Translations under genes and position numbers: made by a program | Notes under the pieces: model-generated | What the model was told of the DNA's origin: nothing | The model's input: only the letters and a program-made list of their open reading frames with translations | Databases searched by the model: none | NCBI GenBank assembly: GCA_030691295.1 | Contig: JAUYEQ010000624.1 | Span: 1 to 17,076 of the forward strand | Reading direction: 5' to 3' | Origin: Bacteroidota bacterium | Lineage (GTDB): Bacteria > Bacteroidota > Bacteroidia > Bacteroidales > Prolixibacteraceae | DNA: 17,076 nucleotides | Shown here: piece after piece, positions 1,646 to 15,978 of the stretch | Layout: each line of letters starts with the position of its first letter | Position numbering within the stretch: position 1 is the stretch's first letter

Positions 1646-2716
1646 ATGAATTTCAGACTATTCGTTGTGTTTATCGTAGTATCTGCATTTATAAGCTCTT
1701 TTTCATGTTCAAGTAAATCGAACCGATCGAGAAAACCAGCGGTTCAAATAAAAATAGAATCGGTAAACAAGAAAATTATTTTTGGTGATGACATCAATAT
1801 TGGTATTTCAGTAAAAGTAAAAGGCGGCGACCTGAAGGAAACCAAAATTTATATTGATTCGGTCTTGGTCACTTCAAGTACTGAAACTGAATTTACTTAT
1901 TCGCTGAAAAATTTTAAAAGTATTGGAAAACATTCAGTAAAAACAGTTGCAACAAAAACCGATGGGATAGAAGGTATTTATTTCAAAACTTTTGAGGTTT
2001 TGTCGGATATTGTTCCTGAAAAATATGGTTATGAGATCGTTAAATCGTTGCCACACAACGAAACATTTTTTACACAAGGATTGGAAATACACAATGGTTA
2101 TTTATATGAAAGTACCGGAGAAAACGGAAAATCAGCCATTTACAAAGTCAATCTTCAAACCGGTAAAGTACTTCAATCGGTAAAACTTGCAGATCGTTAT
2201 TTTGGTGAAGGAATTACTATTTTCAACAACCGCATTTTTCAGCTCACCTATAAAACCAAAGTCGGTTTTGTTTACGAACTGGAAACAATGGCAGTTATTG
2301 ATAGTTTTCATTACGCTTCTCCTGAAGGCTGGGGATTGACCAATGATGGAAAGCAACTGATCATGAGCGATGGCACCAATATTCTTACTTATCTCGACCC
2401 TGTAAGTTATAAACCGGTAAAAAAAGTTCAGGTGTACGACGATAAAAATCCTGTTTTATACCTGAACGAGCTTGAATATTCGGATGGATTTATTTATGCG
2501 AATGTTTGGACTACCAATCTGATTGTAAAAATAGATCCTGAAAGTGGCAAAGTACTGTCTAAAATAGATTTGGACGGTATTCTAACCATGATAAAATCTG
2601 AAAAACAAGTTGATGTTTTAAATGGCATAGCGATAGATCCGGTCACAAAAAAAATGTATGTAACCGGAAAATTATATCCTAAACTGTTTGAAATTAAACT
2701 TGTTAAAAAAGGGTAG
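1646..2716 (+). CDS. glutaminyl-peptide cyclotransferase (glutamine cyclotransferase family), probable lipoprotein
   Basis: A 356-residue exported protein. The N-terminus is a hydrophobic signal (residues 5-20) ending in SSFSC, so Cys21 is the likely lipidation site, although Phe at -2 and Ser at -3 make the lipobox imperfect. Residues of about 30-125 look like a beta-sandwich domain. From about residue 130 come the family's landmarks: [39 protein letters not shown] and LNGIAIDP near the end, fitting the five-bladed beta-propeller glutamine cyclotransferase family (PF05096). These enzymes cyclise N-terminal glutamine to pyroglutamate; this one would act in the periplasm or at the cell surface. 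The start is ATG 1646 rather than TTG 1613, because the latter is part of the promoter. The last 14 bases overlap the 3' end of the convergent ruvB. The propeller-family call is strong; enzymatic activity is inferred. Confidence 0.85.
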
Positions 2717-3728
2717 GGGTGTCGCCGTATTTAATTTTTCCCAGGTGTTTATAAGCCAGTTCAGTAACTTCCCTTCCCCGCGGTGTGCGTTTTAAAAATC
2801 CTTCCATTATCAGGAAAGGTTCATACACTTCTTCAATGGTTCCGGTGTCTTCGCCAACAGCAGTTGCAATTGTTGATAAACCAACAGGCCCGCCCTTAAA
2901 TTTATCGATAATGGTTGTTAAAATTTTATTATCCATTTCATCCAAACCATACTTGTCGATGTTCAGCGCATCCAATGCGTACAAAGTAATATCGATATCT
3001 ATTTCACCATTGCCTTTTACCTGGGCAAAATCTCTTACGCGGCGCAACAAAGCATTTACAATTCTGGGAGTTCCGCGACTTCTTGATGCAATAGAAACAG
3101 CTGCCTGATCTTCAATTTTCACATTCAGGATATAAGCCGAGCGTTTTACTATTTTTGTAAGTATATCAACGTCGTAGTATTCGAGATGCGATTTTATGCC
3201 GAAACGAGCCCGTAGGGGACTTGTTAATAAACCAGAGCGTGTAGTTGCGCCAATCAAGGTAAAAGGGTTTAATTCGATCTGAATGGACCGCGCACTGGGT
3301 CCCTTGTCAATCATGATATCTATCTTGTAATCCTCCATTGCTGAATACAGGTATTCTTCTACAATTGGGCTCAAGCGGTGAATTTCGTCGATAAACAAAA
3401 CAGAATTGGGTTCAAGGTTTGTTAACAATCCAGCCAAATCTCCGGGTTTGTCCAATACCGGCCCGGATGTTAGTTTCAGCGAAACACCCAATTCATTGGC
3501 AATAATATTTGAAAGTGTGGTTTTTCCCAGACCGGGTGGGCCGTGCAGTAGAACATGATCCAAAGCCTCGCCACGCATTTTTGCAGCTTTGACAAATATT
3601 TTCAGGTTTTCAACAATTTTACTCTGCCCGCTAAAATCATCGAATTCAAGCGGCCTTAATTGTTTGTCAATATCTTTGTCATTATCCGGGACACATTCTT
3701 CCCTGAAATCAAAATGTTCGTTCATCAT
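2703..3728 (-). CDS. ruvB: Holliday junction branch migration DNA helicase RuvB
   Basis: A 341-residue AAA+ motor that, with RuvA, drives branch migration of Holliday junctions in recombinational repair. Visible motifs are the [11 protein letters not shown] entry segment (25-35), Walker [10 protein letters not shown] (63-71), Walker B DEIH (114-117), the [18 protein letters not shown] sensor/arginine-finger region, and a C-terminal winged helix containing [22 protein letters not shown]. Length and motif order are normal for the family. Two adjacent ATG codons (3726-3728 and 3723-3725) are equally possible starts. A TACATTTG box at 3745-3752 gives it its own promoter. It follows the receiver gene on the same strand with a gap of 65 bases. 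ruvA and ruvC are not in the window. The 3' end overlaps the convergent cyclotransferase gene. Confidence 0.97.
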
Positions 3729-3793: not shown

Positions 3794-4183
3794 TCAACTA
3801 ATTATATTCAATTCGCTGAAGATTACATTGAGTTTTTCGATATCAAACGGCTTCGACATAAAATCGTCCATTCCGAATGATATGCATGTATCACGATCAT
3901 TATCCATTGTATTTGCAGTAAGCGCTATGATAGGAGTTCTTGAATCTGAATTATTATTTTTTTCATCTTCCCTTATTTGGATCGTAGCTTCAAGCCCATC
4001 CATCACCGGCATCATGATATCCATCAAAATAACGTCAAATTTATTCGTACGAAATATCTGAACTGCCTCCAAACCATTGTTGGCAATAGTTACTTCGTGA
4101 TTATACTTTTTTAAACTAAACGTTACGATACGCTGGTTTAAAAGATTATCCTCCACCAATAATATTTTAAGTCTCTCTCCCAT
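3794..4183 (-). CDS. stand-alone response-regulator receiver domain (CheY-like)
   Basis: A 129-residue protein that is a receiver domain only, with no output domain. The key residues are in place: acidic pair Glu11-Asp12 (LLVEDNLLNQ), phospho-acceptor Asp55 (VILMDIMMPVMDG), switch Thr89 (IIALTAN) and Lys111 (MSKPF). The sequence resembles the receiver domains fused to hybrid histidine kinases, so it probably takes part in a phosphorelay or binds a partner protein. No kinase is nearby, so partner and process are unknown. It starts at ATG 4181-4183 after a purine-rich AAAGAG. The best promoter candidate lies about 250 bases upstream (4432-4460), implying a long leader. Confidence 0.9.
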   Translation of the reverse strand: MGERLKILLVEDNLLNQRIVTFSLKKYNHEVTIANNGLEAVQIFRTNKFDVILMDIMMPVMDGLEATIQIREDEKNNNSDSRTPIIALTANTMDNDRDTCISFGMDDFMSKPFDIEKLNVIFSELNIIS

Positions 4184-4431
4184 TGTTGCTCTTTCTAATC
4201 ACCCAATACTGTTTATTCCGAAAAAAGGAAAAAGGATACCCTCATTTTTCATTTATTTACACATTATTATAATTATTATTTTAAATATAATTAAAAAGAA
4301 TGAATATGAATATGTCCTGTTAGTTCGTTTGATATCTTTTTATTGTTTCGCTTGCATTTTTAAAAATGGTATTTTTATATTCTTTTTTAAACGGGTTATT
4401 AACAACGTAAAGTAATGAAAGCAAATTTAAT

Positions 4432-4460
4432 AGCCTTTATAATAACATCTGTTGATTCAA
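4432..4460 (-). promoter_or_regulatory. candidate promoter for the receiver gene
   Basis: The minus strand carries ATTG (at 4457-4460 on the plus numbering, seen there as CAA) and, 18 bases further on, TAAATTTG (4432-4439), matching the -33/-7 pattern of this phylum. Transcription would start near 4426 and leave a leader of about 240 bases. In such AT-rich DNA a chance match is possible. Confidence 0.35.
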
Positions 4461-4580
4461 TTTGTTTTTAATAAATTTATACCGCAAAATAACCACAATT
4501 TTGTTGATTCACGGTACAATTAGTATTTGTTAATTTTTCTTGTCTTTTCCGAAAAAATATCTAATACAAATATCAATCTA

Positions 4581-4588
4581 TATCTTTG
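4581..4588 (+). promoter_or_regulatory. -7 element of the DUF4175-to-uvrC operon
   Basis: TATCTTTG is a perfect TAnnTTTG, identical to the box upstream of the cyclotransferase gene. Transcription would begin near 4594, giving a leader of about 95 bases before ATG 4690. No TTG lies at the usual -33 spacing. Confidence 0.45.
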
Positions 4589-4689
4589 TCATTAGTTTTT
4601 GATATTTTACCTGAACTTATAAACAATGAATTTAAATTTCTGTTTAAAAGTTAATATTTTAATTGGTTATAAATGAATGGCTTGTACTG

Positions 4690-7600
4690 ATGGATAAAAA
4701 CTATAAACAGTTTGTTGATAAGCTAAATTCGTATATTCGGAAGTTTTACCTTTATCAGTTGATGAGGGGTTTAATGCTTTTTATACTGCTGGTAATTGTT
4801 TATTGGGGCAGCGTATCGCTTCTTGAATACTTTAGCTATTTCGATCCAAAGGTTAAATTAAGCATTGCTATTTTCACTATATTACTTACTTTATTTATTT
4901 TTATCTACTTCATAATCAAACCATTTATTAAATTGTTGGGTCTTGGAAAAATATTAACATTTTACGATGTTTCAACACATTTAAGTAAAAAGTATCCTGA
5001 AATTAAAGACCGTTTAATCAACATCATTGAATTATCAAGTGAAGCTCATTCAAATTATTCCGATGAGTTGACAAAAGCAAGTATTGATCAGAAAATTGAT
5101 GAGTTAAAAGTATTTTCATTTTCTGATGCTATACGACTGAAAGATTTGAAGATACTTTTTATTTCATTTTTAGGAGTATTTCTATTATTTTCTGTATGGT
5201 TTATTAGTTTTCCTGAATTATTTAAGGAAAGTTCAGTTCGCTTAATAAGGTATCAGCAGAAATTTGAAAAACCGGCTCCTTTTACTTTTATCCTCGAAAA
5301 TACCGATCTGGAAGTGATAATGGGTGAATCTATTGATTTACAATTGCTTTGTAAGGGTAAAGAAATCCCGGAGATGGTGTATGTAAATATAGGAGGAAAT
5401 AACTTTTTAATGACGAAGGAAAACGATGGTTTTAAATATACCATCGAAAATGTAAATAGTTCATTTTCAATATATTTTACAGATAAAAAGTACGTTTCAG
5501 AAGGATATAAAATTTCAGTAATAAACAAACCTTTTGTTTCAGAATTTACGCTGGATATTCAATCTCCGGGTTACACCGGGTTACAAACCCAAACGCTTCA
5601 TAATATTGGTGATTTAAAAATAGCTTCAGGCTCAACCATACTTTGGAAATTTAAAACTGTGGATACCGACAGTTTGGAAATAATATTCAATGACAGTTCA
5701 AAAATTTCAGGTATTAGGAATGGAAACTCATTTAAAGTAAAGAAAACATTTTTGACCAATGCTGAATACCGCATTTCAATTAAGAATTCTAGATTGAAAG
5801 ATGAAAACAGTCTTATTTATAGGGTTCAGGTTATTCCCGATTTATTTTCTGAAATAAAGGTGGTACAGGTTAGCGATTCCATTGATTTTAGAAGATTTCA
5901 TTTTAAAGGCAATATAATTGACGATTACGGATTTCATAAGTTGGCATTTGTCTTAAATGTTGAGGGAAAAGACAGTATCATTAGTATTCCGGTTACACCT
6001 TATTTTCTAAATCAGGATTTTTATTATTCATTTGACTTTGAATCGGTTAAAAGTTTGGGTAAATCGTTTAAGTATTACTTTTCAGTTTATGATAACGATT
6101 ATATCAATCATTTTAAAAGAACTATCAGCGAAACTTTTACATTTAGTTTTCCGGATTATCAGGAAATACTTGCAAAAGAAAACTCGGATATGAATTCAAT
6201 TGATCAACTGATAAAAAAGAGTTCAAAGCTTACAGAAGAAATTCAGATGGAATTTGAGAACTTTAAAATGAAACAGATTAATTCGAATATATCGGATTAT
6301 GAAAAATTTCAAACAGTTAAGGATATTGTAAATAAAAAGAATGAACTGGAAAATGTGTTGGAACAGATTGCTCAGCAAAATAAGGATGCCAATAGATTTT
6401 TGAATTCGTTTTCGGAGGATAAAGCTGAAATACTGAAAAAGCAACAGCAAATTGACGAACTTTTGAATGAAGTTTTTAGTGATGAATTGAAAAAGTTGTT
6501 CGAGGAATTTAATGAACTGGCCAAACAATTTGATCCGAAAAAGTTTGATCAGTTATCGAAGGAGATGAATACCGGGTTGGACGATCTTTCAAAACAATTG
6601 GATAAAAATATGCAGTTGCTTAAAAAATTGAAGGTGGAACAAAAAGTTGAAAGGGTTTTGGATGAGTTGAAAAAGTTGGCGGTTTCAGAAAAACAAATTC
6701 AGGAAGATATAAAAGACAAGGATAATTTAAGTGAATCCGGTGAATCGGAAAAGAAAAATTTTAATCATTTAGACGAGATTGAGAAGGATTATAAGGATGC
6801 GCTTGATTTTAATAAGACCTTGGAGAAACCGATGAATTTATTTGATCTCGGAAATGAATTCAAAGATATCAAGGAAAACTATCAGGAAATTTTAAAAGAA
6901 GTTGAAAAGAAAAACCGCAAAAAAGCTTCTGATGGGATAGGGGAGAATGTAAAAAGTTTGGAAGAGTTGGCTTTTTCAATCGATCAAATGTTGAAGAGTA
7001 ATAAGAAGAAAGAGAACAAAGTAAATATTGAGGATATAAAACAAATTCTTGATAATTTGATTTTGGTTTCTTTTGAACAGGAAAATTTGCTGAAAACGCT
7101 AACTAAAATTGATTATAATAATCCGCTTATAAATGAGTTGAAAGTAAAACAAAAGAGTATGCAGCGGCAGGTTGAATTTGTGAAGGATTCGCTTTATGCA
7201 TTGTCGAAACGTACGCCTGAAATCAGTTCAATCATCAACAAGGAATTATTGTCGTTGGAAAGCAATGTTGGTTATTCATTCGATAATCTTGAATCAGGAA
7301 ATATTGGAGGTTCAAGAATGTATCAGCAATACGGTATTACGGCTGCCAATAATTTAGCTTTGTTTTTAAGCGAAGCGCTTGATAACATTAAGAAGCAGGA
7401 AGAAGCTGCCGGAAGTGGCGAAGGAGATTGTGAGAAGCCTGGCGGAAAGGGTTCAAAACCAAGCATAGGTGCGCTTAAAGAAAGTCAAAATTCTATAAAA
7501 GAGCAATTGCAGAAAATGATCGATCAGATGAAAAGTGGCGATATGGGCAAAATGGGTAGAAGTATAGGTCAAACCATTGCACAACAGGAGATTATGCAAC

Positions 7601-7974
7601 AATTGATTCGTGATATGCTTAATGGTACTTCGGTCGGGAAAGAGGCAAAAGGGCAGTTGCAGGCAATCGATCAGTTGTTGGAACAATCGAGAAAAGATTT
7701 AATTAACCGTAACATTAGCAATGAGTTGATAAATCGACAGAACTTAATTTTATCAAAATTACTTGAAGCCGAAAAATCCGAAATTGAACGGGATTTTGAG
7801 GATGAAAGGGAATCGAAAACAGCCAAAGATATAAAGAAAGCCAACCCTGAAGATTATTTCGAGTTTAATAACAAAACCAAAAATGAGAATGAACTGTTGA
7901 AAAGGAGCAACTATCAATTGCGTAATTTTTACGATCAGAAATACAACAACTTTTTAAACCAGATTAAGAATTAA
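4690..7974 (+). CDS. DUF4175-like large membrane-anchored coiled-coil protein
   Basis: A 1094-residue protein of unknown function. The N-terminus carries hydrophobic segments at about 28-45 and 57-76 and a third at about 153-172. A large extracytoplasmic-looking beta-rich part follows (about 180-480), then a long Lys/Glu/Gln-rich stretch of predicted coiled coil (about 500-900), a short Gly-rich linker (SGEGDCEKPGGKGSKPS) and another helical charged C-terminus with many Gln and Met residues. The architecture and position match the DUF4175-type proteins found in this operon in other Bacteroidota (from memory, not searched). I start it at ATG 4690 (MDKNYKQF), not at the TTG nine codons upstream. 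It is the first gene of the operon, and the next gene begins two bases after its stop. The biochemical role is unknown; a structural or envelope function is plausible. Confidence 0.75.
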   Translation: MDKNYKQFVDKLNSYIRKFYLYQLMRGLMLFILLVIVYWGSVSLLEYFSYFDPKVKLSIAIFTILLTLFIFIYFIIKPFIKLLGLGKILTFYDVSTHLSKKYPEIKDRLINIIELSSEAHSNYSDELTKASIDQKIDELKVFSFSDAIRLKDLKILFISFLGVFLLFSVWFISFPELFKESSVRLIRYQQKFEKPAPFTFILENTDLEVIMGESIDLQLLCKGKEIPEMVYVNIGGNNFLMTKENDGFKYTIENVNSSFSIYFTDKKYVSEGYKISVINKPFVSEFTLDIQSPGYTGLQTQTLHNIGDLKIASGSTILWKFKTVDTDSLEIIFNDSSKISGIRNGNSFKVKKTFLTNAEYRISIKNSRLKDENSLIYRVQVIPDLFSEIKVVQVSDSIDFRRFHFKGNIIDDYGFHKLAFVLNVEGKDSIISIPVTPYFLNQDFYYSFDFESVKSLGKSFKYYFSVYDNDYINHFKRTISETFTFSFPDYQEILAKENSDMNSIDQLIKKSSKLTEEIQMEFENFKMKQINSNISDYEKFQTVKDIVNKKNELENVLEQIAQQNKDANRFLNSFSEDKAEILKKQQQIDELLNEVFSDELKKLFEEFNELAKQFDPKKFDQLSKEMNTGLDDLSKQLDKNMQLLKKLKVEQKVERVLDELKKLAVSEKQIQEDIKDKDNLSESGESEKKNFNHLDEIEKDYKDALDFNKTLEKPMNLFDLGNEFKDIKENYQEILKEVEKKNRKKASDGIGENVKSLEELAFSIDQMLKSNKKKENKVNIEDIKQILDNLILVSFEQENLLKTLTKIDYNNPLINELKVKQKSMQRQVEFVKDSLYALSKRTPEISSIINKELLSLESNVGYSFDNLESGNIGGSRMYQQYGITAANNLALFLSEALDNIKKQEEAAGSGEGDCEKPGGKGSKPSIGALKESQNSIKEQLQKMIDQMKSGDMGKMGRSIGQTIAQQEIMQQLIRDMLNGTSVGKEAKGQLQAIDQLLEQSRKDLINRNISNELINRQNLILSKLLEAEKSEIERDFEDERESKTAKDIKKANPEDYFEFNNKTKNENELLKRSNYQLRNFYDQKYNNFLNQIKN

Positions 7975-8378: not shown

Positions 8379-8797
8379 GTATTAATTATTGTATTGAAGA
8401 TGTTCCTGCTCCGAAGATTCAGAAACGAAAAATAACCAGCTGGATTAAAGAAACTGTTATTTCTGAAGGTAAAACATTGGGAGATATTTCTTTTGTTTTT
8501 TGTTCTGATGATTATTTGCTTGAAGTTAATAAGCAATATCTTAATCACGATTATTTTACCGATATCATTACGTTTGATTATGTAGAGGATGGAGTTATTT
8601 CCGGCGATATTTTTATAAGTTGTGATCGGGTAAAAGAGAATGCTTCGGCGTTTAAAACAGGTTTTGAAAATGAATTATTACGAATTGTAATTCACGGAGT
8701 TCTTCATCTGTTGGGATATAAAGATAAAAGTAAAAAAGACAAACTATTGATGACTCAAAAGGAAGATTTTTACCTGGCGTTATTATCAAAGAGTTGA
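8375..8797 (+). CDS. ybeY: endoribonuclease YbeY, 16S rRNA maturation and ribosome quality control
   Basis: A 140-residue metal-dependent RNase that helps process the 3' end of 16S rRNA. Family landmarks are LNHDYFTDIITFDY (56-69), GDIFIS (77-82) and the metal site HGVLHLLGY (107-115). His107 and His111 are present, but where the classical pattern HGxLHLxGYDH has its third metal-binding His, this protein has Asp117 (GYKDK). From memory, Asp at this position is common in Bacteroidota YbeY, so I read it as a lineage variant and not a loss of function. The start ATG overlaps the stop of the ATPase gene. Length is normal, and mnmG follows after 21 bases. Confidence 0.93.
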   Translation: MSINYCIEDVPAPKIQKRKITSWIKETVISEGKTLGDISFVFCSDDYLLEVNKQYLNHDYFTDIITFDYVEDGVISGDIFISCDRVKENASAFKTGFENELLRIVIHGVLHLLGYKDKSKKDKLLMTQKEDFYLALLSKS

Positions 8798-8818
8798 TTA
8801 ATAAATAAATAAAGAGAG

Positions 8819-10696
8819 ATGTTACCGTTTTACGATGTGATTGTTGTTGGGGGAGGCCATGCGGGTTGCGAAGCTGCTGTTGCGGCTGCAAATTTGGGGT
8901 CGAAAACATTGTTGATTACAATGGACATGACCAAATATGCGCAAATGTCGTGCAATCCGGCAATGGGAGGTATAGCAAAAGGTCAGATTATACGTGAAAT
9001 TGACGCTTTGGGTGGTTACTCCGGAATAGTTACCGATAAGTCAAGTATTCAATTTAGGATGCTGAATCAGTCAAAAGGGCCAGCAATGTGGAGTCCCCGT
9101 GCCCAGTGTGACCGGGTTCGTTTTACCGAATTATGGCGGCACGTGTTGGAGAAAACTGAAAATCTGGACTTATGGCAGGATGCTGTTATTTCGTTGCATA
9201 TAAAAGACAATGTTGTTACCGGAGTCAAAACGAAGATAGGAGTTGATTTTTATTCAAAGTCGGTTGTATTAACCAATGGTACTTTTTTAAACGGTTTGAT
9301 GCACATTGGAAAAGCTCAAATGGAAGGCGGCAGGATAGGAGAGAGCGCTTCCTATCATATTTCAGAACAATTATTAAATGCAGGTTTTAAAACTGGTCGG
9401 TTAAAGACAGGCACACCTGTTAGAATTGACGGAAGATCGGTTGATTTTTCAAAACTTGAGGAACAGGGTGGTGATGATGTAATTCATAATTTTTCATTTC
9501 TGCCTGAAATAAAATCCAGTTTAAAGCAAAAAAGTTGCTGGATAACTTATACCAACTCAGAAGTTCATAGCATTCTGGAAGAAGGATTTGGAGATTCTCC
9601 GATGTACAATGGAACCATTCTTGGAACAGGTCCTCGTTATTGTCCAAGCATTGAGTCTAAAATTGTCACTTTTTCAGAACGAACTTCCCATCAACTTTTT
9701 TTGGAGCCGGAAGGGGAGGATACCATCGAATATTATCTGAATGGTTTTTCATCTTCATTGGCTTGGGATGTTCAGTTACGCGCTTTGAAAAAGGTTCCGG
9801 GATTGGAAAATGTTCGAATTTTTCGTCCAGGTTATGCAATAGAATATGATTATTTTGATCCGACTCAATTGCTTCATTCGCTCGAAACAAAGCTGGTTAA
9901 AAACTTATTTTTCGCCGGACAGATTAATGGCACCACCGGATACGAGGAGGCAGCTGCACAAGGTCTGGTTGCCGGAATAAATGCACATCAAAAAGTGAAC
10001 GGGCTTGAACCTTTTGTTTTGAAAAGAGACGAAGCTTACATTGGCGTTTTGGTGGATGATTTGGTTACAAAAGGAGTTGATGAGCCTTACCGTATGTTTA
10101 CCTCCAGGGCTGAGTACCGCATTTTATTGCGCCAGGACAATGCCGATTTTCGACTTACACCAATAGCGTATAAATTTGGTTTGGCTAAAAAAGAACGGTA
10201 TGATTTATATATTGAAAAGAAAGAAGCGGTGGATAAAATAATTGAATTTGTATCAGGGTTTTCCATTAAGCCGCAATATATTGATTCTATTCTGGAAGCA
10301 AAAGGTTCTTCGGCCTTGAAGCAGGGAGTTAAATTAATCGACATTATTCTACGTCCTCAGATTTCGATATTTAATTTGACTGAAGACATCGCACCGTTTA
10401 AATCATTTCTGAAGTTTGTGCCGGAAGAGCGTTTTACCGAAATTTTAGAGTCAGCCGAGATAGCAATTAAATATGCAGGTTACATTGATCGTGAAAAATT
10501 GGTAGCTGATAAGTACCGAAGATTAGAAAATATCTCCATTACCGGAAGGTTTGATTATAACAGTATGCATACAATTAGTACAGAGGCGAGACAAAAACTT
10601 ACCGAAATACAACCGGAAACCATAGGTCAGGCTAGTCGTATTTCTGGGGTAAGTCCGTCTGATATTAATGTTTTACTTGTCCTCTTAGGACGTTAA
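8819..10696 (+). CDS. mnmG: tRNA uridine-5-carboxymethylaminomethyl modification enzyme MnmG (GidA)
   Basis: A 625-residue FAD protein which, with MnmE, installs the carboxymethylaminomethyl group on wobble U34 of certain tRNAs. It shows the dinucleotide-binding motif [12 protein letters not shown] (9-20), the [14 protein letters not shown] segment (about 44-57), [11 protein letters not shown] (about 270-280) with the conserved Cys, [18 protein letters not shown] (about 365-382), and [14 protein letters not shown] (about 430-443). The C-terminal helical domain ends with [25 protein letters not shown]. Length is full. The start ATG 8819 follows a purine-rich AAAGAGAG. It sits between ybeY and apt, and a parS-type palindrome lies two bases after its stop codon. 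mnmE is not in the window. Confidence 0.97.
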
Positions 10697-10697
10697 T

Positions 10698-10711
10698 GTT
10701 CCACGTGGAAC
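10698..10711. other. parS: parS-type centromere site (ParB-binding palindrome)
   Basis: GTTCCACGTGGAAC is a perfect 14-bp palindrome and fits the broadly conserved chromosomal parS pattern GTTnCACGTGnAAC; with the flanking T it reads TGTTCCACGTGGAAC. It lies between the mnmG stop and the apt start. ParB loads at such sites and spreads, which organises origin segregation. A second 13/14 match is at 15595-15608. parA and parB are not in the window, so binding is inferred from the motif. As RNA, the site could also form a five-pair hairpin before TTTT, but the exact parS match is the better explanation. Confidence 0.8.
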
Positions 10712-10726
10712 TTTTAAAATTTAAAA

Positions 10727-11245
10727 ATGGAGCTCAAAAATTTCGTTCGTTCGATTGAAAATTATCCTATTGAGGGTATAAGTTTTAAAGATATTACCAC
10801 CTTATTGAAAGAACCAACCGCATTTAAACAAGTGGTTGATGAAATTTCAAATCGGTTTAAGGACAAGGGAATTACCAAAATTGTATCGCTCGAATCGCGT
10901 GGATTTATTGTTGGGGGAGCTGTTGCCTATTGCATCAATGCTGGTTTTGTGCCGATTCGTAAAAAGGGAAAATTGCCGTCAACCGTTCTGAGCGAATCGT
11001 ATGAATTAGAGTATGGAGTGGATTCTATCGAAATTCATACTGATGCTTTGACAGAAGATGATGTTGTTTTGATCCATGATGATTTGTTGGCAACCGGTGG
11101 AACTGCCCTTGCTGCACTCAATCTGGTGAAGCAAATGAATGTGAAAAAAATCTACTTTTCTTTTATCATTGACCTTACTTTTATTGATACTGAAAAGAAG
11201 ATCGAATTGGCAGAATACGAAACACATTCAGTGATTCAGTATTAA
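10727..11245 (+). CDS. apt: adenine phosphoribosyltransferase
   Basis: A 172-residue purine-salvage enzyme converting adenine and PRPP to AMP plus pyrophosphate in the cytosol. The N-terminus NYPIEGISFKDITTLL (12-27) is typical of Apt (usually yPxxGixFkDitpLl). It also has ESRGF (56-60), RKKGKLP (78-84) and the PRPP-binding loop VVLIHDDLLATGGT (113-126). Length is normal. It is the fifth gene of the operon, after the parS-type site, and uvrC begins 26 bases beyond its stop. Confidence 0.96.
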   Translation: MELKNFVRSIENYPIEGISFKDITTLLKEPTAFKQVVDEISNRFKDKGITKIVSLESRGFIVGGAVAYCINAGFVPIRKKGKLPSTVLSESYELEYGVDSIEIHTDALTEDDVVLIHDDLLATGGTALAALNLVKQMNVKKIYFSFIIDLTFIDTEKKIELAEYETHSVIQY

Positions 11246-11271: not shown

Positions 11272-13080
11272 ATGGTGTTGAAAAATGCTGAATATCTAAA
11301 ATCCCTGGTTTCGGTTCTTCCAGATCAACCTGGGATATATCAGTATTTTGATCAAAGCGGAAAGATTATTTATGTCGGAAAAGCGAAGAATTTAAAGAAA
11401 AGGGTTACTTCTTATTTCATAAAAAATCAGCAAAATCGGAAAACAGAACTACTTGTAAGGAGCATTTCAGACATCAAACACATGGTGGTTGAAACCGAAC
11501 AGGATGCTCTTTTACTCGAAAATAACCTGATCAAAAAGTATCAGCCCCGATACAATATCCGGCTGAAAGACGACAAAACTTACCCGTGGATCGTCATCAA
11601 AAACGAACGGTTTCCAAGAGTTTTTCAAACCAGAAATGTGATCCGCGATGGATCAACTTATTTTGGTCCGTACACGTCCATTTTTACCGTCCGGATGTTG
11701 CTTGAATTTTTCCGTAAAACGTACAAGCTTCGCAATTGCAAACTGAATCTTTCGGAGGAGAATATCCGCCTGAAAAAGTTTAAAGTCTGTCTGGAATATC
11801 ACATCGGAAATTGTCTCGGACCGTGTGTGGGGAAACAGGAGCACAATCAGTATATGAAAAGTATTGATCAGATTAAGGAGATATTGAAAGGGAATATATC
11901 CGGAGTAATCAAATATCTCAAGGATTTGATGCATCAATTTTCCTCGGAATATAAGTTTGAAGAAGCTGCTTTGATCAAAGACAAGCTTGAATTGCTCGAA
12001 AAGTTTCAATCCAAATCTACAGTCGTGAGCAATTCAATTAGCGATGTGGATGTTTTTACAATCGATCAGGACGAAGATTTTGCCTACATCAATTACCTGA
12101 AAATTATCCAGGGCGCCATCATGCAAACCTATACTTTGGAGCTTAAAAAAGTATTGGATGAATCGCCCAACGAATTACTGGAGCTCGCGATTGTTGACAT
12201 TCGTCAGAAAATATTCAGCAATGCAAAAGAAATTCTGGTGCCCTTTAAATTGGATTTTGAATTGGAAGGAGTGAAATTCCTGGTTCCAAAACAGGGCGAT
12301 AAGAAAAAATTACTTGATTTATCGGAACGGAATGCAAAATATTACCGGATAGAAAAGCAAAAACACATGTCGGTGCCGAAGACCGAAAAGAATGCAATGC
12401 GTATTTTGGAAACCATGCAAAAGGATCTTCAGTTAAAATCTCAGCCAATCCACATCGAGTGTTTCGACAATAGTAATTTGCAGGGGACAAATCCGGTGGC
12501 TTCGTGCGTGGTTTTCAGAAATACAAGACCTTCGAAAAAGGACTATCGCCACTACAATATAAAAACTGTTGTTGGGCCCGACGATTTTGCTTCGATGGAA
12601 GAAATTATTTACCGAAGATACCGGCGTTTGATTGACGAAGAAAAATCGCTGCCGCAGTTAATTGTGGTTGACGGAGGAAAGGGTCAACTTGGTGCTTCTT
12701 TAAATGCACTTGAAAAATTGGAGCTTCGTGGCAAGATTGCAATTATCGGAATTGCAAAAAGACTGGAAGAAATTTATTTCCCCGGAGATTCGGTTCCGCT
12801 CTATCTTGACAAGAATTCGGAGACGCTGAAAATTATTCAGCAGTTGCGCGACGAAGCCCATCGGTTTGGAATTACATTTCACCGCAATAAACGATCGGGC
12901 GAATTTATAAAATCGGAACTCGAAAATATTTCAGGAATAGGAGAGAAGACGATAACAGCGGTTTTAAAGCGTTTTAAGAGCGTCGAGAATCTAAAAAAAC
13001 AAGGCTACCGGGTAGTTGCCGATGAAATAGGCGATTCTAAAGCACGTATCATCTTCGACTTTTACGAGCTAACCTATTGA
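11272..13080 (+). CDS. uvrC: excinuclease ABC subunit C (UvrC)
   Basis: A 602-residue nuclease that makes both incisions in nucleotide excision repair with UvrA and UvrB. Domains in order: GIY-YIG nuclease (about 17-95, with GIYQYF, IIYVGKAKNLKKRV and the acidic ETEQDALLLE); a cysteine cluster at 156, 173, 181 and 185 that matches the family's four-Cys iron-sulfur site; UVR motif (about 208-243); RNase-H-like second nuclease (about 390-540, with ECFDNSN and VVDGGKGQLGA); and a C-terminal helix-hairpin-helix (ISGIGEKTITAVLKRF, about 555-570). Length is normal. It is the last gene of the operon and is followed by a hairpin terminator shared with rsgA. Confidence 0.97.
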   Translation: MVLKNAEYLKSLVSVLPDQPGIYQYFDQSGKIIYVGKAKNLKKRVTSYFIKNQQNRKTELLVRSISDIKHMVVETEQDALLLENNLIKKYQPRYNIRLKDDKTYPWIVIKNERFPRVFQTRNVIRDGSTYFGPYTSIFTVRMLLEFFRKTYKLRNCKLNLSEENIRLKKFKVCLEYHIGNCLGPCVGKQEHNQYMKSIDQIKEILKGNISGVIKYLKDLMHQFSSEYKFEEAALIKDKLELLEKFQSKSTVVSNSISDVDVFTIDQDEDFAYINYLKIIQGAIMQTYTLELKKVLDESPNELLELAIVDIRQKIFSNAKEILVPFKLDFELEGVKFLVPKQGDKKKLLDLSERNAKYYRIEKQKHMSVPKTEKNAMRILETMQKDLQLKSQPIHIECFDNSNLQGTNPVASCVVFRNTRPSKKDYRHYNIKTVVGPDDFASMEEIIYRRYRRLIDEEKSLPQLIVVDGGKGQLGASLNALEKLELRGKIAIIGIAKRLEEIYFPGDSVPLYLDKNSETLKIIQQLRDEAHRFGITFHRNKRSGEFIKSELENISGIGEKTITAVLKRFKSVENLKKQGYRVVADEIGDSKARIIFDFYELTY

Positions 13081-14967: not shown

Positions 14968-15978
14968 ATGAGAATATTTCTTCTAATCTTGGTTGTTTTT
15001 GTTTTTACTGTTTCTGCTTCCGGAAAATCATTCACTGGCTTTCTGCAAGCGAAAAAGGACTCAAATTACATTGAAAGTTATTTTAACGACTTCATTGTAA
15101 ACCTTTATTCAGTAGAAAAAACACATTCGCTCGATTTAAGCGATTTAAGTAATCCATACCGGCTTCAGTATTTGCCAAACGGATATTTTAATATGGGTGT
15201 GGGAGTTAACTTTCGGTCTTTTGGTTTGAGTATGGCCACAAAAATTCCTTTTTTGCAGAACGACGAATCCAAGTATGGGGAGACAAAGAGGTTCGGAATT
15301 CAGAGCTATATTTATACCAATAAATATTCAATCGATTTAATATCATCAACTTCAAAGGGTTATTATTTAAAAAATTCCAATCAGCACTTGAATTCGTTTA
15401 CAAAAGTTCGGGAATATCAACGACCCGATATTGTTTCTACCAACCTTGGGTTGAATGTAAATTACATTTTTAACAACCGAAAATTTACGTACAAAGCGGC
15501 ATTCAGTGATACCGAGCGACAAAAAAGAAATGCAGGCTCACTGATTGCCGGAGGAAGTATTCTTTCATACCGAACCAAAGCCGATTCGGCATTTGTTCCA
15601 CGTGGAATCGACGAAAAGTTTTTCCTGAAATCCAGAGATGTCAATAAATCGCTGGTTTTGGCCTTCAATGTAAATGGCGGCTATGCCTATTCGCTTGTTT
15701 TTTTGCGAAATGGAATCGTAACGATGTCGTACATTGTGGGTGCGGGAATTCAGGATAACAACTATGATAAAACTACCCAAGCTGAAGTTAACAACTGGAG
15801 GTTTAGTTTTAATCATACCGGAAGGTTTGGCATCGGTTACCGTGTGAAAAGATATTATGCAAGAGCGTCATTTATTCGTTCCACTCAATTTACCAGTTTG
15901 CGACACAATGATTTAAGAATAGCAAACGGTACGGATTTCATACAGTTGTCTGTGGGAAAACGCATTTCGTTCAAATAA
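14968..15978 (+). CDS. DUF4421-like outer-membrane protein of unknown function
   Basis: A 336-residue protein with a signal peptide (MRIFLLILVVFVFTVSASG, cut probably near residue 19). The mature start KKDSNYIESYFNDFIVNLYS and the later alternating hydrophobic/polar strands with many aromatic residues (for example MGVGVNFRSFGLSMATKIPF and GIGYRVKRYYARASFI) look like an outer-membrane beta-barrel. They fit the DUF4421 family known from Bacteroidota; I assign this from memory. The C-terminus ends in a strand-like SVGKRISFK. No enzymatic motif is visible. It lies three bases after xthA, although no functional link is obvious. A parS-like palindrome is embedded in its codons at 15595-15608. Confidence 0.65.
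   Translation: MRIFLLILVVFVFTVSASGKSFTGFLQAKKDSNYIESYFNDFIVNLYSVEKTHSLDLSDLSNPYRLQYLPNGYFNMGVGVNFRSFGLSMATKIPFLQNDESKYGETKRFGIQSYIYTNKYSIDLISSTSKGYYLKNSNQHLNSFTKVREYQRPDIVSTNLGLNVNYIFNNRKFTYKAAFSDTERQKRNAGSLIAGGSILSYRTKADSAFVPRGIDEKFFLKSRDVNKSLVLAFNVNGGYAYSLVFLRNGIVTMSYIVGAGIQDNNYDKTTQAEVNNWRFSFNHTGRFGIGYRVKRYYARASFIRSTQFTSLRHNDLRIANGTDFIQLSVGKRISFK
15595..15608. other. second parS-like palindrome, inside the DUF4421-like gene
   Basis: GTTCCACGTGGAAT matches the site at 10698-10711 in 13 of 14 positions, and its inner 12 bases TTCCACGTGGAA are a perfect palindrome. It encodes Val-Pro-Arg-Gly within the gene, so it coexists with coding use. By a simple random-sequence estimate, a match this close is expected well under once per window, which supports a real second ParB site. 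Confidence 0.6.

Follow-up and report, generated by a model that had tools for sequence, protein, structure and literature searches.

The window (the whole 17,076-nucleotide stretch of DNA analysed here) belongs to a draft genome of 4,443,218 bases (4.44 Mb) in 721 contigs, which is 93% complete. Scanning the window for the parS pattern with up to two mismatches returned two places, a perfect palindrome between mnmG and apt and a one-mismatch copy further downstream:

8819..10696, + strand: mnmG (gidA); TIGR00136, E 1.5e-244; Pfam GIDA
10698..10711, no strand: parS core GTTCCACGTGGAAC; flanked form TGTTCCACGTGGAACT, one base off the 16-bp form
10727..11245, + strand: apt, the next gene; NF002634 and TIGR01090, both over cut-off
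11272..13080, + strand: uvrC; TIGR00194, E 3.9e-155
15595..15608, no strand: possible satellite parS GTTCCACGTGGAAT; in frame in a DUF4421 gene, where it codes for VPRGI

The TAA stop codon of mnmG (10694–10696) is followed by a single T at 10697 and then by GTTCCACGTGGAAC, and 15 A/T bases separate the end of the palindrome at 10711 from the apt ATG at 10727. The 14-bp palindrome, its coordinates and the 30-base mnmG–apt gap are exactly as claimed in a preliminary description of this DNA. Judged by Apt, the closest relatives are Prolixibacteraceae, with Draconibacterium and Mariniphaga more distant. The titles of two apt-bearing entries look doubtful: 'Odoribacter sp.' (L052) has a Prolixibacteraceae-type gene run whose apt is 83% identical, and the apt of a MAG contig titled 'archaeon' (L060) shares 50% identity with the window's.

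The consensus for parS, as given in a passage of PMC7383237, is TGTTTCACGTGAAACA, and the window site matches all 12 fixed core positions of the parS pattern. Under the C/G reading, the window 16-mer agrees with TGTTYCACGTGRAACA at 15 of 16 positions, its final base being T, not A. C/G is also tolerated at the two inner variable positions of parS, and the sites of the family show the same. Throughout the 4.44-Mb draft, exact GTTNCACGTGNAAC occurs only at the window site (reversed control pattern: 0), against an expectation from composition of about 0.17 exact sites per genome. With one mismatch allowed, the draft has seven other places, compared to nine for the control; one-mismatch sites as such are therefore background in this draft. 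By all the evidence that sequence can offer, the palindrome appears to be a chromosomal parS, ordinary by kind: a bacterial centromere onto which the chromosome-segregation protein ParB would load.

A conserved place behind mnmG

Among 60 genomes of the family Prolixibacteraceae, 54 carry the exact site and five the reversed control pattern, with 64 exact against six control places in total. We read the surroundings of the site in all 54 genomes, using the window's MnmG as query and projecting the mnmG stop position from the alignment. An even scatter of sites over the genome, which the preliminary description had named as an outcome speaking against a parS, is not what emerged: exactly one site is present in 45 of the 60 genomes, and in 51 of the 54 site-bearing ones its start falls between −1 and +8 bases downstream of the mnmG stop, with one base in between in 40 of the 51 and the last stop base shared with the site in three. 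Since the search pattern fixes 12 core positions, identity of the core is given by construction, and the unselected positions are the informative ones. Of the two unconstrained positions, one is always C/T and the other always A/G in the 51 aligned sites, and the outer T and outer A are kept in 45/51 and 44/51, respectively.

The three exceptions to the mnmG position (G031, G043, and G054) all belong to genus g12, and their site lies about 8.5 kb from mnmG. It sits inside polA in G031 and G043, in frame as VPRET codons, and the site locus of G054 is without mnmG. A fourth genome of this genus, G011, has no exact site and two one-mismatch sites less than 9 kb from mnmG, one of which occupies the same polA codons as in G031 and G043. 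Across three g12 loci (L306, L307, and L308), the parS in polA reads as VPRET or IPRET, the copy in L306 being a one-mismatch form. The other five site-less genomes gave no convincing mnmG match (in G013, 33 residues only), so the mnmG–parS region is probably missing from these assemblies. A second exact parS is found 29–40 kb from the main site in G036, G021, and G043 (L300, L301, and L302).

Looking beyond the family, we found at least one site in 140 of 148 genomes drawn from the phylum at a completeness of at least 90%. For gene context, we examined 27 loci listed from 36 genomes of the same class and 25 hand-picked from other classes, with each family label from f11 to f34 represented once and f16 twice (one locus per genome). 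The same roughly 3-kb locus contained mnmG in 24/27 and 19/25 cases, respectively, with sites lying before mnmG, after it, or both. Among the places listed, 24 of these 52 genomes show two sites spaced 1.88–2.05 kb apart; as this spacing is about the length of mnmG, parS seems often to flank the gene on both sides. The window's family keeps mostly only the downstream site, and a second parS upstream of mnmG, as elsewhere in the class, was not detected at up to three mismatches in the window (8601–8900). Six sites stand just before mnmG in L325. This locus and three others of family f5, genus g28 (L326, L328, and L329), have three to six exact parS clustered at a spacing of ~40–110 bp; the clusters adjoin mnmG, except in L329, which is at a contig end and adjoins ybeY.

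A true parS might be held behind mnmG because ParB tunes mnmG, apt or uvrC, its main role here then being regulatory. The spacing of one base from the projected mnmG stop in 40 of 51 genomes fits this idea, and there is a precedent in another species, in which, according to passages of PMC7022226, a single parS with its ParB complex can act on a promoter and genes at a distance of 5 kb. However, eight of the 51 loci gave no apt match (L018, L019, L024, L038, L287, L288, L289, and L299), genus g12 has its parS in polA, and elsewhere in the phylum the sites change sides of mnmG or occupy both. We therefore regard a primarily regulatory site as very improbable, if the best placed of the alternatives.

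Slightly less probable still is an RNA hairpin that would act as a weak terminator or as a processing site in the mnmG–apt gap, its likeness to parS being coincidental. The transcript could form a 5-bp stem and TTTT follows the window site; moreover, the variable positions can pair in 49 of 51 sites if U-G wobble is counted (38 CG, 2 TA, 9 TG). As nine of the 11 non-Watson-Crick sites still wobble, the argument from non-pairing weighs less against a stem. Yet the predicted fold is no better than that of shuffled sequences (z −0.75; 44 of 200 at least as good), the site is not among the predictions of a terminator scan, two of the 51 sites contain a C-A mismatch, and at least five T within the next ten bases follow only eight of the 51. 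A terminator behind mnmG also fits poorly with a site inside polA in genus g12 and before mnmG in many other Bacteroidota. Finally, a chance palindrome in an AT-rich genome, for which the background level of one-mismatch sites in the draft might speak, is refuted by conservation, 51 of 60 family genomes having the site at the same place.

The one-mismatch copy GTTCCACGTGGAAT, 4.9 kb downstream of the main site, is a possible satellite parS and is graded no higher here. Its letters are identical in the orthologous gene of G058; it is absent from the closest relative read (G018), despite presence of the gene, and from the stretches read in G035 and G047, where the DUF4421 gene was not found. The 20-kb main-site stretches of G060 (Draconibacterium orientale; L183) and G030 (L226) together contain six additional one-mismatch sites of the Y/R form, compared to one in the 1.96 Mb sampled elsewhere. 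These two genomes are close (84–90% DNA identity over the main aligned blocks) and three satellites are common to both, so the two sets are not independent; in one of the three shared satellites, the core is kept and the flanks differ.

ParA, ParB and their distance from the site

Absence of parB, a further outcome that would have counted against the preliminary description, does not apply: the draft encodes a ParA–ParB pair, and all 60 family genomes have a ParB (TIGR00180). In the draft, parA directly precedes parB on contig C300 (L002; AAA_31, E 3.7e-70). The ParB sequence runs into the contig end after 168 residues and includes ParB_N, part of the HTH, and the GERR motif; the first three specificity residues are R-Y-R, and the sequence stops before position 201. 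In the ParB loci of the best-scoring 30 of the 60 genomes, the equivalents of Caulobacter positions 173/179/184/201—mapped by motif, not by structural alignment—read R-Y-K/R-G in 30 of 30, together with GERR. A passage of PMC7383237 calls R173 and G201 absolutely conserved among ParB orthologues. The ParB of one relative (L119) matches solved ParB/Spo0J chains.

These residues also bear on whether the palindrome could be a Noc-binding site (NBS) instead of parS, given that Noc, the sister protein of ParB, recognises a similar 16-bp site. The probability of this is negligible, and both the core sequence and the ParB residues led us to reject it: the source passage gives TATTTCCCGGGAAATA as the NBS consensus whereas the window site has CACGTG, and the outer specificity positions of the 30 best-scoring ParBs are R and G, not Q and R.

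Proximity of parAB to parS, usual for such systems albeit not defining, is not seen in the family. In the nine genomes with both on one contig, the distance is 0.38–1.0 Mb: 0.38 Mb in G060, 0.46 in G030, 0.74 in G039, 0.62 in G027, 0.73 in G043, about 0.59 in G011 (taken from its near-site), and 0.5–1.0 Mb in G042, G053, and G032. The best-scoring parB is likewise remote in other families where both are on one contig, the nearest being about 0.5 Mb off; a weaker ParB-family match, additional to the best one, lies about 0.3 Mb from parS in G194 and G190. As for dnaA, it is 1.1–2.1 Mb from parS in six one-contig family genomes (G011 again by its near-site). Outside the family, G090, G192, and G207 have dnaA less than 0.1 Mb from parS, as G063 probably does too; in the other measurable genomes it is farther away.

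Probable position of the replication origin

We measured GC skew in 20-kb stretches sampled from the six one-contig family genomes. At parS, the skew turns from negative to positive in five of them (G060, G030, G039, G027, and G043), and G011 showed no clear change in the sampled stretches. The change falls within 20 kb of parS in D. orientale and between −70 and +70 kb in G039 and G027. That of G043, also between −70 and +70 kb, is noisy, its stretches at −800 and +800 kb each having the sign contrary to this pattern; an out-of-order stretch occurs at −80 kb in G030 and one of contrary sign at −400 kb in G027. A contiguous 420 kb of D. orientale has its cumulative minimum at 1,929,361, 6.3 kb from parS at 1,923,106. 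The minimum lies beside one of the two groups of DnaA-box-like sequences that are densest in this stretch (three in 500 bp, one of them exact). The origin-proximal position anticipated by the preliminary description is thus borne out by GC skew in five of six one-contig relatives. Its proposed check against the positions of dnaA and parAB would have misled, because both genes lie 0.38–2.1 Mb from parS in these relatives.

With the draft in 721 contigs, its own origin can be placed only through the local skew minimum of the window, which falls in the following arrangement:

2703..3728, − strand: ruvB, adjoining the response regulator; TIGR00635 over cut-off
3794..4183, − strand: single-domain response regulator (receiver-only); PF00072, E 2e-27
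4184..4662, no strand: candidate oriC; 78% AT gap between the response regulator (−) and the 1103-aa ORF (+)
4663-7974, + strand: ORF of 1103 aa, conserved in relatives; no Pfam or NCBIfam match

The cumulative minimum of the window is at 4624, inside the gap, with a skew of −0.04 on its left side and +0.14 on its right, and the most AT-rich 200 bp of the window start at 4244, also inside it. In D. orientale, the minimum over 420 kb lies inside the corresponding divergent gap between response regulator and long ORF (about 370 bp outside when the 20-kb stretch alone is used), and the stretch minimum of G030 lies inside the same gap. These neighbours are kept in G035, G047, G058, G060, and G030, and in G027 only the long ORF was matched; by tblastn, response-regulator orthologues occur at the same place in five relatives, at 52–80% identity. 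The D. orientale and G030 gaps each contain one exact DnaA box and one-mismatch boxes. The window gap has none with zero or one mismatch (one is at 4713, just beyond), so that it is no more than a candidate oriC; TTAACA-type words are only mildly above random expectation within it. Most likely, the origin is this AT-rich divergent gap about 6 kb upstream of parS, which would then have oriC activity.

Proposed function and comparison with known systems

Taken together, we consider the palindrome very probably to be the primary parS of a Prolixibacteraceae-type genome, loaded by ParB from a remote parAB locus, with the origin most likely about 6 kb upstream. Sequence comparison shows what kind of site this is, that the draft has no other exact copy, that it is conserved behind mnmG, and that ParA and ParB are present; relatives add the parS-type specificity residues of ParB and the position of the origin by GC skew. 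ParB binding, clamp loading, a function in segregation, and oriC activity of the gap are inferred. ParB made from the parAB operon elsewhere on the chromosome would bind the palindrome, close together with CTP into a DNA clamp, and slide over mnmG, apt, uvrC, and their neighbours; this spreading may affect the transcription of apt and uvrC. The loaded ParB may then serve as a handle for ParA (perhaps also for a condensin), such that newly copied origins would be separated first. Passages of PMC7333895 and PMC7022226 present ParB loading, CTP-clamp sliding, and hand-over to ParA as established ParABS biology, and a single parS as often sufficient.

The fixed place, behind mnmG in the family and beside it widely in the phylum, is worth more than the site itself. 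No title in the literature searched reports a parS–mnmG linkage; the parS census of Livny et al. 2007 may contain part of it. We lean, with some reserve, towards a compact origin–centromere module (oriC at 4184–4662 and parS 6 kb on), in which mnmG–parS would be the lasting core of the Bacteroidota origin domain phylum-wide and from which dnaA and parAB would have moved away. If this is true, looking for the 14-bp site at mnmG would be enough to find the origin in nearly every draft genome of the Bacteroidota. The conserved junction is a marker usable even in fragmented metagenome assemblies. The default placing of Bacteroidota origins at dnaA, which is sometimes done, does not suit this family, because dnaA is 1.1–2.1 Mb from parS in its six one-contig members. 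Normally having one exact parS and a distant parAB, these genomes also provide a clean natural setting for tests of ParB loading, spreading, and segregation.

Four bodies of earlier work bear comparison. A parS/Hi-C study of gut bacteria (PMC10197239) scanned parS with two mismatches in 12 gut species, two of them Bacteroidetes, and reports in its passages that parS clusters mark the origin and that dnaA is not always there; it shares with our analysis the origin-marking parS, and those passages are silent on mnmG. For the flavobacteria Mariniflexile and Algorimicrobium, passages of the genome papers PMC11278836 and PMC12843772 predict oriC at mnmG, consistent with GC skew; for Mariniflexile, the choice was made because dnaA disagreed with the skew (one figure legend of that paper swaps labels). 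These passages are silent on parS, and our analysis adds both the junction parS and the divergent gap 6 kb upstream. Chromosomal parS of the ParABS type are alike in the 16-bp palindrome, in origin proximity, and in the encoded ParA and ParB; here, in contrast, there is one exact site in 45 of 60 genomes, parAB is 0.38–1.0 Mb off where measurable, and the site abuts the mnmG stop codon. The chromosome of Xanthomonas campestris, according to passages of PMC7333895, likewise has a single parS, whereas here the site is common to a whole family at one gene junction, with one-mismatch satellites nearby in some of its members.
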